Made by a program: the position numbers and the translations under genes
The notes under the pieces: generated by a model
Told to the model about the DNA's origin: nothing
Database searches by the model: none
The model's input: the letters and a program-made list of their open reading frames with translations, nothing else
Part shown: one piece after another, positions 16,022 to 31,890 of the stretch
How the letters are laid out: every line of letters begins with the position of its first letter
Position numbering within the stretch: the first letter of the stretch is position 1
Source of the DNA: Okeania sp. KiyG1
GTDB taxonomy: Bacteria > Cyanobacteriota > Cyanobacteriia > Cyanobacteriales > Microcoleaceae
Assembly (NCBI RefSeq): GCF_014132355.1
Contig: NZ_BLZO01000123.1
Span: 1-34,503 of the forward strand
Reading direction: 5' to 3'
DNA: 34,503 bases

Positions 16022-16967
16022 GGAGCAGGATACTATCGCAGATTAGCTATAGTTGGTTTAACTTTAAAATATGTTCCGGAACAGTTTTCTATTTTTGGTG
16101 ATTTATCGCAACAGGATACTATCGCAGATTAGCTATAGCTGTTTCAACTTCAAAATGTGTTCCGGAACAGTTTTCTATTTTTGGTGATTTATCGGAGCAG
16201 GGTACTATCGTGGATAAGTTATAGTTGGTTCAGCTTCAAAATGTGTTCCGGAACAGTTTTCTATTTTTGGTGATTTATCGGAGCAGGGTACTATCGTGGA
16301 TAAGTTATAGTTGGTTCAGCTTCAAAATGTGTTCCGGAACAGTTTTCTATTTTTGGTGATTTATCGGAGCAGGGTACTATCGTGGATAAGTTATAGTTGG
16401 TTCAACTTCAAAATGTGTTCCGGAACAGTTTTCTATTTTTGGTGATTTATCGGAGCAGGGTACTATCGTGGATAAGTTATAGTTGGTTCAACTTCAAAAT
16501 GTGTTCCGGAACAGTTTTCTATTTTTGGTGATTTATCGGAGCAGGGTACTATCGTGGATAAGTTATAGTTGGTTCAGCTTCAAAATGTGTTCCGGAACAG
16601 TTTTCTATTTTTGGTGATTTATCGGAGCAGGGTACTATCGTGGATAAGTTATAGTTGGTTCAGCTTCAAAATGTGTTCCGGAACAGTTTTCTATTTTTGG
16701 TGATTTATCGGAGCAGGGTACTATCGTGGATAAGTTATAGTTGGTTCAGCTTCAAAATGTGTTCCGGAACAGTTTTCTATTTTTGGTGATTTATCGGAGC
16801 AGGGTACTATCGTGGATAAGTTATAGTTGGTTCAGCTTCAAAATGTGTTCCGGAACAGTTTTCTATTTTTGGTGATTTATCGGAGCAGGGTACTATCGTG
16901 GATAAGTTATAGTTGGTTCAGCTTCAAAATGTGTTCCGGAACAGTTTTCTATTTTTGGTTATCTAGT
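16022..16967. repeat. Tandem array: eleven 86-bp units, each with the 12-bp palindrome TGTTCCGGAACA
   Basis: The core TTCCGGA occurs at 16074, 16160, 16246, 16332, 16418, 16504, 16590, 16676, 16762, 16848 and 16934, exactly 86 bp apart. Each unit runs from GGAGCAGGGTACTATCG through a TCAAAATGTG stretch to the palindrome and CTATTTTTGGTGATTTATC. The first two units are diverged (ACTATCGCAGATTAGC); units 3-11 are almost identical, with only C/G differences at 'ggttca(a/g)c'. The 86-bp length is not a multiple of three, so the array cannot be a coding repeat. It sits between the 5' end of the TIGR03032 fusion gene and the 3' end of the GIY-YIG gene. Confidence 0.97.
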
Positions 16968-16987: not shown

Positions 16988-17830
16988 TCACTTTATCCAA
17001 AGCAAAGGAACTGGATCGCTGATATAACAAGATAACCGGGAAAATTCATAGTCATTACTTTTTTGTGCCTCAGAAAATGCTTCTGGAGTAATTGCAGACA
17101 AGTTTACTCTTGCTAGCTTTAACTTTTGAGTCTTCTCTTTATACTTACTATACGAGTCCACAGGTGTAATGTGAATTACCACACCATTGCACGCAAGTTC
17201 CCAATGATTGTTATATGAGCGATGTTCTCTTGCTCTCTTCTTGTGCGCTCTACTACCCGGTCGAAAAACTTCTCCAGCAAAATCGTCAAATCTACTATAT
17301 CTGTGCCGCTTGAATTTTAAACTTGTATTTCGATCCTTATTTGTCTTGATATATTCTTTGATTTTTGCCGCCGTTCCTTTAGGTGAGCAATCAGTCCAAT
17401 CATATTTGAGATGAACGTGAAGAAGTTGATCGGAACTCTTAAGTTCAGTTCCAAAAATAATTAGTCGTCGTGAAAAAGTCTTTAGAAATTCTATCAACAC
17501 ATCCTCTGATGGAATTACAGTTGGAGTTTCAACCTTTGTATTGTTTAATAACGGCTGAAAAATTCTAATTAACCTTTTTTCTGCTTCAGCTAAATCGTCT
17601 TTATTCCATGCTTTCCAAGCAAGTCGCACGGGAGATTCTTTATCAATTTCTTCCAATTTGTAAAAGCGATGATGACTTTTCCATCTTGCTGCTAAGTTTA
17701 AAGCTTTACCAATATATAGAATTCTATCACTTGCATCTATTGCAAAGTAGATAGCTGAACAAGTTGGTAGTTGCTTACGATCGGGTAAAGAGACAGAAGG
17801 TAGTTGCAAAGGATTGAGTGAAATGGACAT
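16988..17830 (-). CDS. GIY-YIG nuclease-domain protein
   Basis: A 280-residue protein. Residues about 24-95 are a GIY-YIG domain: the first motif is degenerate (CSAIYFAIDA for GIY) and the second intact (ILYIGKALNLAARWKSHHR), with the Arg of the catalytic helix (R49) and a conserved Glu further on (AEAEKRLI). The domain cleaves DNA in UvrC and homing enzymes; many cyanobacterial stand-alone copies are uncharacterised. Residues 100-280 hold a basic stretch (about 165-215, KFKRHRYSRFDDF..., HKKRAREHRSYNNHW) that could bind nucleic acid. The start ATG at 17830 has no clear Shine-Dalgarno sequence. The 3' end reaches the 86-bp tandem array within about 20 bp. Confidence 0.8.
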   Translation of the reverse strand: MSISLNPLQLPSVSLPDRKQLPTCSAIYFAIDASDRILYIGKALNLAARWKSHHRFYKLEEIDKESPVRLAWKAWNKDDLAEAEKRLIRIFQPLLNNTKVETPTVIPSEDVLIEFLKTFSRRLIIFGTELKSSDQLLHVHLKYDWTDCSPKGTAAKIKEYIKTNKDRNTSLKFKRHRYSRFDDFAGEVFRPGSRAHKKRAREHRSYNNHWELACNGVVIHITPVDSYSKYKEKTQKLKLARVNLSAITPEAFSEAQKSNDYEFSRLSCYISDPVPLLWIK

Positions 17831-29365: not shown

Positions 29366-29534
29366 AGTAGGGTGTGTTAGCGTCAGCGTAACGCACCGCC
29401 TTTTCTTTGTTCCGCTAACGCACCCTACTGGACTGTTTCATCTTAAATAGTGTGTTAGAATTGTCATTGCGAACGACAGTGAAGCAATCTCTAACCAATT
29501 TTCTATTGCATCATTTTAGCTGAAACAGTCCACT
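29366..29534. repeat. Two adjacent MITE-like repeats after the STAND gene
   Basis: 29366-29429 begins AGTAGGGTGTGTTAGCG and ends CGCTAACGCACCCTACT, almost a 64-bp hairpin. 29427-29534 begins ACTGGACTGTTTCATCTTAA and ends TTTTAGCTGAAACAGTCCACT. The second family's end also precedes the first Uma2 gene (20572-20592). The interior has 'tcattgcgaacgacagtgaa', a commonly dispersed sequence. Confidence 0.65.
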
Positions 29535-29537
29535 TTT

Positions 29538-30145
29538 GAGCATTAATTTAACTATTGTCCAATAGTTAAGGGAGCAAACTCACAAAGTAGCGATCGCCTA
29601 ATTATTCAGTATCGAGCATTAATTTAACTATTGTCCAATAGTTAAGGGAGCAAACTCACAAGGTAGCGATCGCTTGATTACTCAGTCTCAATTATTAATT
29701 TAACTATTGTCCAATAGCTAGCAGAGCAAACTCACAAGGTAGCGATCGCCTGATTATTCAGTATCGAGCATTAATTTAACTATTGTCCAATAGTTAAGGG
29801 AGCAAACTCACAAGGTAGCGATCGCCTGATTATTCAGTATGGATAATTCATTTAACTATTGTCCAATAGTTAAGGGAGCAAACTCACAAGGTAGCGATCG
29901 CCTAATTATTCAGTCTCAAGCATTAATTTAACTATTGTCCAATAGTTAAGGGAGGAAACTCACAAGGTAGCGATCGCCTAATTATTCAGTATCGAGCATT
30001 AATTTAACTATTGTCCAATAGTTAAGGGAGGAAACTCACAAGGTAGCGATCGCCTGATTATTCAGTCTCAAGCATTAATTTAACTATTGTCCAATAGTTA
30101 AGGGAGCAAACTCACAAAGTAGCGATCGCCTGATTATTCAGTATT
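29538..30145. repeat. Tandem array: eight 76-bp units, each with an inverted repeat and a HIP1 octamer
   Basis: Corresponding points fall at 29542, 29618, 29694, 29770, 29846, 29922, 29998 and 30074, exactly 76 bp apart. Each unit has a near-perfect hairpin, TTAACTATTG / CAATAGTTAA around TC, then AGGGAGCAAACTCACAA and GTAGCGATCGC. All eight keep the HIP1 octamer GCGATCGC. Unit 3 is diverged in the right hairpin arm (CAATAGCTAG) and unit 5 in the leading bases. No convincing reading frame crosses it. It ends directly against a MITE (30146) and lies upstream of a Ser/Thr kinase gene. Confidence 0.97.
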
Positions 30146-30255
30146 AGACATCTCCAAAAATCAAAAATAAAATCAATTATTACCCAGAAATTATCAATTA
30201 TTCTTCCCTGTTCCCTGTTCCCTGTTCCCTGTCCCCTCTTTTGAAGGAGATGTCT
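30146..30255. repeat. MITE, TAGACATCTCC family (copy 2)
   Basis: The ends AGACATCTCC and GGAGATGTCT are perfect inverted repeats. The interior matches the copy at 8374-8490 and holds a TTCCCTG heptamer run (about 30207-30236). Confidence 0.75.
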
Positions 30256-30324
30256 ATTGTGATAATTGATATCAGTTTTGCCTCACTTGCCAACCTACGG
30301 TATTATGATTCAATAATATTCAGA

Positions 30325-30375: not shown

Positions 30376-31687
30376 ATGTTAACTCCAGGAAAAATTTTAA
30401 AAGAACGTTACCAACTACAAAAACAATTAGGTCATGTTGTAGCAGGTCGTAAAACTTGGCTAGCATTTGACTCCCAGTCAGAAGAACAAGTAACTATCAA
30501 AATGTTAGCTTATAGTCCAGAAATGTTAGGGCAAGAATTAAATTTATTTGAAGCAGAAGCCCAAATTTTACAAGCCCTAAATCATCCCCGCATCCCTAAT
30601 TATCGCGATTATTTTTTATTATATAAAGAAGCTGATGCAGGTTTATCATGGTTTGCATTAGTACAAGATTATATTCCTGGCTTTTCCCTCCAAGAATTAT
30701 TAGATAGAGAGAAAAATTCATAGAAGAAGATGCGAATAAAATTGCCAAAGAAGTGCTAGAAATTCTGATTTATCTCCACGAACTAGAACCTCCTGTTTTG
30801 CATCGAGATATTAAACCAAGTAACTTAATTATGGGTGCAGACCAACAAGTTTATCTGGTAGATTTTGGCGGAGTCCAATCTCAAGGTAATGCTAATGGAG
30901 CAACTTTTACTATTGTAGGAACTATCGGTTATGCACCCCTAGAACAATTTTGGGGTAGAGCAGTACCAGCTTCAGATTTATATGCTTTAGGAACAACTTT
31001 AATTCATTTACTAACTGGAATTATCCCTGCAGATTTACCACAAAAAAATTATCAGATTCAATTTACTGACAAAGTTTATATTAGTCCTAGTTTAGGAAAA
31101 TGGATTAATCAAATCACAGAAATGGATTTGGAAAGACGTTTTAAAAATGCTCGTGAAGCATTAGTAAACCTCGAATCAGAAGCTAAATCTCAATCCAGAT
31201 TGCAACCAAGATTTTTCTCTGCCAAAAAACCTCTAAATTTCAGCAGTATTATTAGTATTAATAAATCTTCAGATATGATAGAAATATATACTCATGCTCC
31301 TAGTTTAAGAGAGCTAAAAAAATCTGGAATTGTTGGTGGAGCGCTTTGTATATTTTTTGGTTTACTGCTAACTAATCCAATTTATGGAATATTATTTTTA
31401 TTATTATTTTTGTGGGAACATATATACTCTTTGGAGAAAAGAATTATATTTATATTGACCGTAATACTTTTCAGGTAGAACGACATTTGTTTAATTTTGT
31501 TTACGGGAAATGTCAGGGAAATACTAGAGATATTTTACAGGTATTATCATCTAAGTTTGAATCTGGTTATCAAGTGATAATTCAATCTCAAATAGATAAA
31601 TATCAACTCGAGCGAGCGATGAATACAAAAGATAGCGCGCGGTTGGCTCAGGAAATTAATGAATGGTTAAATCAAAAACAAAATTGA
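30376..31687 (+). pseudogene. Serine/threonine protein kinase with two 1-nt frameshifts
   Basis: Three frames together encode one typical cyanobacterial kinase of about 437 residues. Frame one (30376-30723): MLTPGKILKERYQLQKQLG, an atypical glycine loop (LGHVVAGRKTWLA), VTIKML with the catalytic Lys, and a PNYRDYF motif. Frame two, entered by adding one A to the A run at 30714-30718: HRDIKPSNLI, VDFGGVQ and GYAPLEQFWGRAVPASDLYALG, then two hydrophobic segments. Frame three, entered by adding one T to the T run near 31406-31410: LFGEKNYIYIDRN... to the stop at 31687, a C-terminal domain (YGKCQGNTRDI). All catalytic motifs (HRD, DFG-like) are present. Restoration of a perfect family match by two single bases in homopolymers suggests sequence error or very recent decay. 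Confidence 0.85.
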
Positions 31688-31738: not shown

Positions 31739-31890
31739 TGGCTTTGTTGCATGAAAGTAGCGATATAGCTGCCGCTAGGCTCCGCCAACGCAGCAAACCC
31801 CCTCTAGAATATTTGGCGTTGGTGAATCAACATAAGAATTAAGATATTTGGGCGAACCGTAATCAAGATTGAATTATAAATACCCCTTTC

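Follow-up and report, generated by a model that had tools for sequence, protein, structure and literature searches.

Arrays of short DNA sites bound by self-regulated proteins are known from the iterons of plasmid Rep proteins and from the centromeres bound by ParR and TubR. In eukaryotes, the CENP-B box satellites keep one protein-binding box in units that otherwise differ. Among bacterial repeats, the NEMIS/Correia elements carry an IHF site, and the small dispersed repeats of Nostoc, 20-27 bp long, move on their own.

Here we compare these systems with a tandem array of Okeania sp. KiyG1, encoded in a stretch of 34,503 nucleotides that we refer to as the window (contig NZ_BLZO01000123.1 of assembly GCF_014132355.1, positions 1 to 34,503). 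Each unit of this array carries a dyad that recurs across the genome, both in other arrays and in front of genes for small HTH proteins. We consider it likely, judging from the DNA, that the arrays serve a family of self-regulated HTH proteins as binding sites and that they were spread in part by MITE-like elements.

Results

A 76-bp array with one dyad per unit

The array described in the original prediction, in which every unit pairs a hairpin with a HIP1 octamer, is confirmed as real: TRF places it at 29538-30144 with a period of 76, 8.0 copies, 92% matches and 0% indels. Its features and immediate neighbours are as follows.

29538-30145, no strand: tandem array of 8 units of 76 bp (from the sequence and TRF)
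29549-29568, minus strand: first of 8 dyads, reading TAACTATTGTCCAATAGTTA on the plus strand; candidate HTH group-1 binding site
29590-29597, no strand: HIP1 GCGATCGC, first of 8, spaced 76 bp
29429-29532, no strand: MITE-like element with ends TGGACTGTTTCA and TGAAACAGTCCA, directly left of the array (from the sequence; recurs elsewhere in genomes of the genus)
30145-30256, no strand: MITE-like element with ends TAGACATCTCC and GGAGATGTCTA, abutting the array on the right (from the sequence; many copies in the genus)
30376-31478, plus strand: protein kinase gene that follows the array, in two ORFs (30376-30723 and 30753-31478)

Each unit consists of a 20-bp near-perfect dyad (TAACTATTG TC CAATAGTTA) followed by HIP1 at a constant offset, and the dyads recur each 76 bp up to the last at 30081-30100. 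The fixed position of HIP1 was described correctly, as the octamer lies 21 nt past the 20-nt dyad on the plus strand in 8/8 units. The claim that all eight units keep the inverted repeat (10-bp arms, 2-nt gap; TTAACTATTG TC CAATAGTTAA) was slightly too strong: it is perfect in seven, and the third (dyad at 29701, CAATAGCTAG) has one base altered within the 20 nt and two of ten pairs mismatched.

A domain scan identified an NB-ARC protein and the kinase as the neighbours of the array; no replication or partition gene was seen among these window neighbours. The kinase is broken into two ORFs, reflecting either a disrupted gene or an assembly error. Array and kinase are also adjacent in five other genomes of the genus (6/6 including our own), where the main array has 12, 16, 8, 8 and 4 units, the last two ending at contig ends. 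In these five orthologous arrays the dyad is kept with small changes, rather than showing the random decay of hairpin arms that the original prediction had named as evidence against it.

Two familiar repeat types were considered for the window array and rejected. Its spacers are near copies of one another and not unique, unlike those of a CRISPR array, and its units lack the GTAG or CGTC tag at one palindrome end that defines REP/BIME in the portion of PMC3733652 cited here. Since eight in-register copies represent a single tandem amplification and not eight events, the decisive test of the dyad lies in the rest of the genome.

The array dyads match sites upstream of HTH-protein genes

At C93 and C60, which lie outside arrays, the dyad, with one base changed, precedes the ATG of a 157-aa gene by 12 nt. 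A search of 119 related genomes with this 157-aa protein gave matches in 30, and the HTH genes analysed here come from that search, except for C93, C60 and C84 (group 1), which were first met through the site. Group 1 was drawn from 39 hits with ≥69% identity over ≥140 aa (31 taken, 30 after dropping one identical protein); groups 2-5 are a subset of the hits. HTH ORFs below 130 aa and identical proteins were excluded from the palindrome and motif tests of upstream regions.

The group-1 array dyad aligns upstream of the 30 group-1 genes with a mean of 1.9 mismatches in 20 bases, compared to 8.8 in shuffles, and beats the first percentile of shuffled upstreams in 29 of them, L290 being the one gene without a site. 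The upstream site is usually the array dyad with one base changed. In 27 of 29 aligned genes (27/30 close homologues) its end lies 10-12 nt ahead of the ATG, and mean column identity is 94% in the site versus 57% in the 40 nt upstream.

A second paralogue group is paired in the same manner with the other array of the window:

16022-16959, no strand: another array of this class, with 86-bp units in 10.9 copies and dyad TGTTCCGGAACAGTTT; candidate HTH group-3 site
16072-16087, plus strand: first of 11 group-3 dyads, one each 86 bp

The dyad of this 86-bp array scores better than the first percentile of shuffled upstreams in 16/17 group-3 genes, where TGTTCCGAAACAGTTT or near forms end at the ATG (16/17). 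In group 2, AAACTATTGTACAATGGTTA or near forms overlap the start codon in 5/5 genes, and in group 4, AAACTATAGTGCTATAGT or near forms are present in 6/6. The dyads of groups 1 and 3 do not cross-match (0/30 and 0/17 genes), and because both were defined from the window arrays, these two pairings are not circular. The dyads of groups 2 and 4 were read from the gene upstreams themselves. Groups 1, 2 and 4 have related dyads that do cross-match (the group-2 dyad, for example, in 28/30 group-1 genes), so that the pairing among these three is not exclusive. The groups 'g5' and 'other' (19/85 family genes) have no single shared dyad. A generic palindrome score of the HTH upstreams was negative (5/85 above the 95th percentile of shuffles), since AT-rich hairpins swamp the score; the motif test was used instead.

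The original prediction had guessed that a single functional class may hold both the 76-bp and the 86-bp array. This guess gains support from the finding that their dyads match sites in front of the genes of two paralogue groups within one HTH family, although HIP1, its proposed defining partner, drops out.

The candidate binding protein, which has about 157 aa and is probably self-regulated, combines an excisionase-like HTH with a C-terminal domain known from phages. The HTH_17 profile is found in 19/29 family members at E ≤0.01 (best E 2.5e-8), the protein of L021 staying under the Pfam cut-off (15.2 of 27 bits), and 13/29 match excisionase PHROG 4691. All 29 members match a phage family of unknown function (PHROG; residues 65-140 in L154), and a phage search gave five weakly matching records, four over residues 68-142 and one over 28-150. 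A search of solved structures returned no relative; the predicted fold is poor (mean pLDDT 42.7), with the first 40 residues drawn as helix-helix-strand-strand.

We counted at least 29 HTH-protein matches in the own genome and 22 to at least 30 in five other genomes of the genus; elsewhere there are at least 31 in G017, at least 28 in G022, at least 27 in G035, 16 in G012, and 7 each in G011 and G026. For G035, no close full-length homologue was listed, only a 90-aa piece of 67% identity. Across 60 related genomes, the 16-bp heart of the dyad, AACTATTGGACAATAG, is present in 12, namely 6/6 of the genus (34-338 copies) and six of two other genera (1-66 copies). These 12 are the same 12 that have at least 7 HTH matches, the other 48 having at most 4, a concordance that spans three genera only. 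In an even sample of the phylum, the family alignment matched in 13/386 genomes, five of them by short N-terminal stretches only. Genomes of other families can also be rich in HTH-protein matches (24 in G101, 25 in G103). An upstream motif of G101 (near TTATCGGAATAGTTA) has 18 sites compared to 6 in the control and forms no arrays. The prediction that G101 bears arrays of its own upstream motif thus failed for the motif tried, and a large HTH family alone does not bring arrays.

When L021 was compared with 12 close HTH loci, the start of DNA homology ranged from about 50 nt ahead of the dyad to the dyad's first bases, and its end from 10 nt ahead of the stop codon to about 320 nt past it. In L282 (534-867), the site and a truncated 43-aa HTH ORF occur twice, followed by a full HTH gene, showing that regions with site and HTH ORF can be duplicated in tandem. 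This tandem may represent a birth stage of an array.

Dyad arrays recur across the genome and the genus

The own genome (G000) is a draft of 10.98 Mb in 198 contigs, in which arrays may be collapsed. A DNA search of it with the window array gave 83 matches over many contigs, and AACTATTGGACAATAG has 338 exact copies (208 + 130; reversed control 0). Dyad arrays have periods from about 64 to about 220 bp, and the dyad consensus of all 45 other arrays compared lies 0-2 of 20 bases from that of the window. Among the matches listed, named contigs with the dyad are mostly Okeania. One array, L057, lies on contig JASJEE010000117.1 of a genome named only Microcoleaceae; its spacers are related to those of the window array (identity 0.74, z 4.8). 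A lone dyad with identical flanks occurs in three differently named genomes (L055:531, L094:5873, L126:5871), apparently just 3' of one gene's stop codon (frame read by eye). The plasmid collection searched held neither array DNA nor the HTH protein; ten viral contigs had one dyad match each, and the viral contigs searched contained no relative of the HTH protein. A literature search by title or abstract start found no paper on these arrays.

The dyads of both window arrays recur in arrays built of different units. The dyad of the 86-bp array, GTTCCGGAACAGTTT, has 130 + 99 own-genome matches at ≤2 mismatches compared to 7 in the control, a count in which a palindromic site can score on both strands. 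Group-3 dyad arrays lie at C24 (139 bp, 19.6 copies), C46 (69 bp, 13.1), C30 (96 bp, 13.1) and C109 (101 bp, 6.0 and 4.0 copies), and the 86-bp array itself is matched in 4/6 genomes of the genus, own included. Two more family dyads are found in arrays, more weakly: group-4 dyads (47 sites, 2 in the control) form short arrays, and AACTATAACGTTATAGTT or a near form is present in arrays at C85 and C32. The latter dyad resembles the site before the HTH gene of L068, a link that rests on one gene. Next to the 86-bp array, the window encodes a GIY-YIG domain protein (16988-17830). At L363 (C86:80500-89500), several group-4 dyads lie a few kb from the group-3 site of an HTH gene.

The original prediction had further proposed to compare other long arrays of the genome for the plan of one dyad with exact spacing. 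In a 400-kb sample, drawn from the own genome at fixed positions and in part from contigs already known to bear arrays, none of 19 array places had any of five HTH-linked dyads (≤3 mismatches). A perfect palindrome with arms of ≥7 bp was present at three, one of them a CRISPR array. A dyad in every long array is therefore not supported, and the dyad arrays are one class among several. Repeats of CRISPR type were seen at L204:3538-4532 and L353:42-78.

Many group-1 arrays lie in MITE-like elements

Many dyad clusters are bounded by GGCTTTGTTGCATGAAAG and its complement, which we call type-A elements. Their ends mostly begin 72-76 nt before the first dyad and finish 75-93 nt past the last. Paired GGCTTTGTTGCATGAAAG ends within 2.6 kb are present at 13 of the 27 own-genome loci scanned, and a perfect 9-bp target duplication surrounds 11 of these 13, enclosing 1-22 dyads in 269-1556 bp; three of the 11 are weaker cases, with the simple context ATTATTAAT, and the paired-end loci L012 and L226 have none. 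Type-A elements thus show the terminal inverted repeats and target duplication of MITEs, and we take their ends to resemble the IS903 group. Ten ORFs near type-A ends include one OrfB_IS605 and one PDDEXK_2 transposase, neither linked to these ends. A second element, of about 89 bp, has AGGACTTACGCA ends; 35 of 40 such elements have no target duplication at the ends assumed. Its centres appear interchangeable: by eye, 50 listed elements (83 counted) hold the dyad or a near form in 17 cases, a group-4 dyad in one, others in four, and a GGGGCGAATGGCATTCGCCCC-like palindrome, the commonest read, in 28.

This element structure could point to a selfish satellite, in which the dyad would serve only the mobility or amplification of the MITE-like elements, for example as an architectural site bent by the HTH protein, and the arrays would be by-products with no host role. 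We regard this explanation as possible but on balance unlikely. The perfect duplications, the exchange of centres (including one for a group-4 dyad) and the position of the dyad, exactly central in the 89-bp type (35/34 nt) and mid-element in L092, a type-A copy with one dyad (72/78 nt from the outer ends), would all suit a part that serves transposition. However, another single-dyad type-A copy, L010 (391 bp), has its dyad far from the centre, and the six group-3 array loci are not bounded by two ends of either element type, two having one-sided 89-bp-type ends. The window array also speaks against it, as its dyads are intact in six genomes even though it has no element ends: we found no inverted-repeat pair in its 260-bp flanks and no type-A or 89-bp-type ends within 160 bp. 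It is an old copy of the class without element ends. Elsewhere in the window, a type-A end GGCTTTGTTGCATGAAAG lies at 31740-31757, with no partner end listed in the window.

Dyad and HIP1 vary less than the remainder of the units

We measured variation in 46 TRF arrays (period 55-140, ≥4.5 copies, dyad in the consensus), each aligned to its own consensus. Mismatches amount to 99/7696 positions in the 16-nt dyad, 15/2854 in HIP1 and 1323/24041 in the remainder, that is, variation about 4x lower in the dyad and about 10x lower in HIP1. The mismatch rate lies under that of the remainder for the dyad in 43/46 arrays and for HIP1 in 33/35. Two L011 arrays, a cluster of mixed orientations, account for 46 of the 99 dyad mismatches.

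Neutral minisatellites, produced by slippage and alike in their dyads through descent from one source, are therefore a very improbable account of the arrays, given how little the dyad varies within those of group 1. Some arrays do share more than the dyad: the spacers of 10/45 other arrays (the orthologues, the C134 set with L009 and L192, L056, and L057) are clearly related to the window unit (z > 3 against shuffles). Those of the remaining 35, HIP1 included, are not clearly closer to the window's than shuffles are (z < 3), so that most spacers have drifted apart and the dyads have not. Grouping arrays by spacer at 60% identity was uninformative, as shuffles reach up to 59%. The group-3 dyads speak for neutrality, as they show no overall constraint (32/840 mismatches versus 193/5030 in the remainder); 22 of these 32 come from C30.

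It is more improbable still that each unit is a small RNA gene with its own promoter and a short hairpin RNA. A precedent exists in Nostoc, whose NsiR1, of about 60 nt, is encoded in 12 tandem copies with individual promoters according to the part of PMC9045159 drawn on here, and the isolated 26-nt hairpin of our array does fold better than shuffles (z -3.0). On neither strand, however, does the first whole unit fold better than its shuffles (z -0.33 and -1.24). Rfam gave no window match at gathering score, with chance matches far below threshold in the array region, and 12 array loci yielded only a CRISPR repeat. In addition, the outermost pair of the 16-mer is broken on one side in 171/394 array dyads and changed on both sides in 0/394, an uncompensated pattern that fits a DNA half-site, CTATTG, more readily than the maintenance of a hairpin. 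An RNA gene would also leave the subgroup-specific dyads at HTH genes unexplained.

Turning to HIP1, the octamer lies 23-28 nt past the dyad (GA strand) in 32/35 arrays and 15, 16 and 83 nt past it in the other three; background HIP1 density is 0.44 per kb in the 400-kb sample. Seven of these 35 arrays are the window array and its orthologues, and type-A arrays clearly share ancestry, so neither the arrays nor their common offsets are independent cases. The least probable reading, that methylated HIP1 beside hairpins is the functional part, can call on its presence in 35/46 consensuses, its near-constant offset and its variation of 0.5%, but HIP1 is missing from 11/46 arrays that carry the window's dyad and from five tabulated group-3 arrays of the 86-bp type, and its constancy requires no array function given a published general model of upkeep by methylation-linked mismatch repair (PMC4390886). 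HIP1 is a frequent but dispensable accessory of the array class and not, as the original prediction had it, a defining partner.

Discussion

The reading of the arrays as binding sites for the HTH family draws together the shared sequence of the dyads, their position before the genes, the subgroup pairing, the constraint on group-1 dyads, the structure of the elements and the co-occurrence of dyad and HTH family. In the mechanism that we propose, the unit dyad would be a close copy of the operator-like site of a small HTH_17-type protein, and paralogue groups have dyads of their own at their start codons. At least two such dyads are found in tandem arrays (that of group 1 at window position 29538 and many other places; that of group 3 at window position 16022 and at least four others), as are, more weakly, two more. 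Many group-1 arrays would have grown by tandem duplication inside MITE-like elements. Most likely, dimers of the HTH protein would fill the arrays. These would act as a sink that determines how much of the protein is free, and the DNA would be coated locally.

A one-base difference between arrays and genes suggests an order of occupancy. At 26 own-genome array loci, 384/394 dyads contain CAATAG and none contains CAACAG; two CAACAG units occur in G002 arrays (L187, L193). Of 30 group-1 gene sites, 22 contain CAACAG and 6 CAATAG. As arrays carry the symmetric CAATAG and Okeania gene sites mostly CAACAG, arrays are predicted to bind first. They would then be the better sites, and the gene would be repressed only once they are occupied. 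We infer binding, self-repression and titration from these patterns, the titration proposal depending on the single base.

A further, rather doubtful extension is that the arrays are a counterpart of box-bearing satellites, in which the chromosome copies of this large filamentous cyanobacterium would be organised or tethered by paralogous HTH proteins, each with a genome-wide set of arrays where just its own site is kept.

The long arrays of large cyanobacterial genomes are easily dismissed as junk, yet one class of them can be read by a rule: each unit holds a single site, and that site corresponds to one paralogue group within a DNA-binding family. Under this rule, array function becomes testable with a single purified protein. 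The arrays offer a natural system in which many chromosomal site arrays occur alongside their likely regulator, and they connect the spread of MITEs with the growth of satellites and the evolution of regulators in a bacterium.

Several described systems share part of this arrangement. HIP1, as treated in the cited part of PMC4390886, is present as GCGATCGC in 8/8 window units, but is a mere accessory of the array class. The NsiR1 array of Nostoc, in the portion of PMC9045159 cited, is likewise a tandem array in a filamentous cyanobacterium; ours, by contrast, occupies many loci and is known from DNA sequence alone. The bacterial MITEs NEMIS, RUP, ERIC and Nezha, as described in the portion of PMC3733652 cited, resemble the carrier elements in their short inverted ends, target duplication and inner palindrome. 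They differ from them in that the interior here consists of as many as 22 dyads in tandem and that the window copy has no ends.

Similar in plan are the iteron and centromere arrays, likewise tandem short sites accompanied by a DNA-binding protein with a site at its own gene, where binding in our case is predicted from sequence. Unlike these, the Okeania arrays occupy many chromosomal loci, have several paralogue-specific dyads and often sit in MITE-like carriers. With the CENP-B box satellites, whose segregation role we do not carry over from the eukaryotic case, they share units of differing sequence that keep one box; here, the satellites are bacterial, and there are several proteins, each with its own box.
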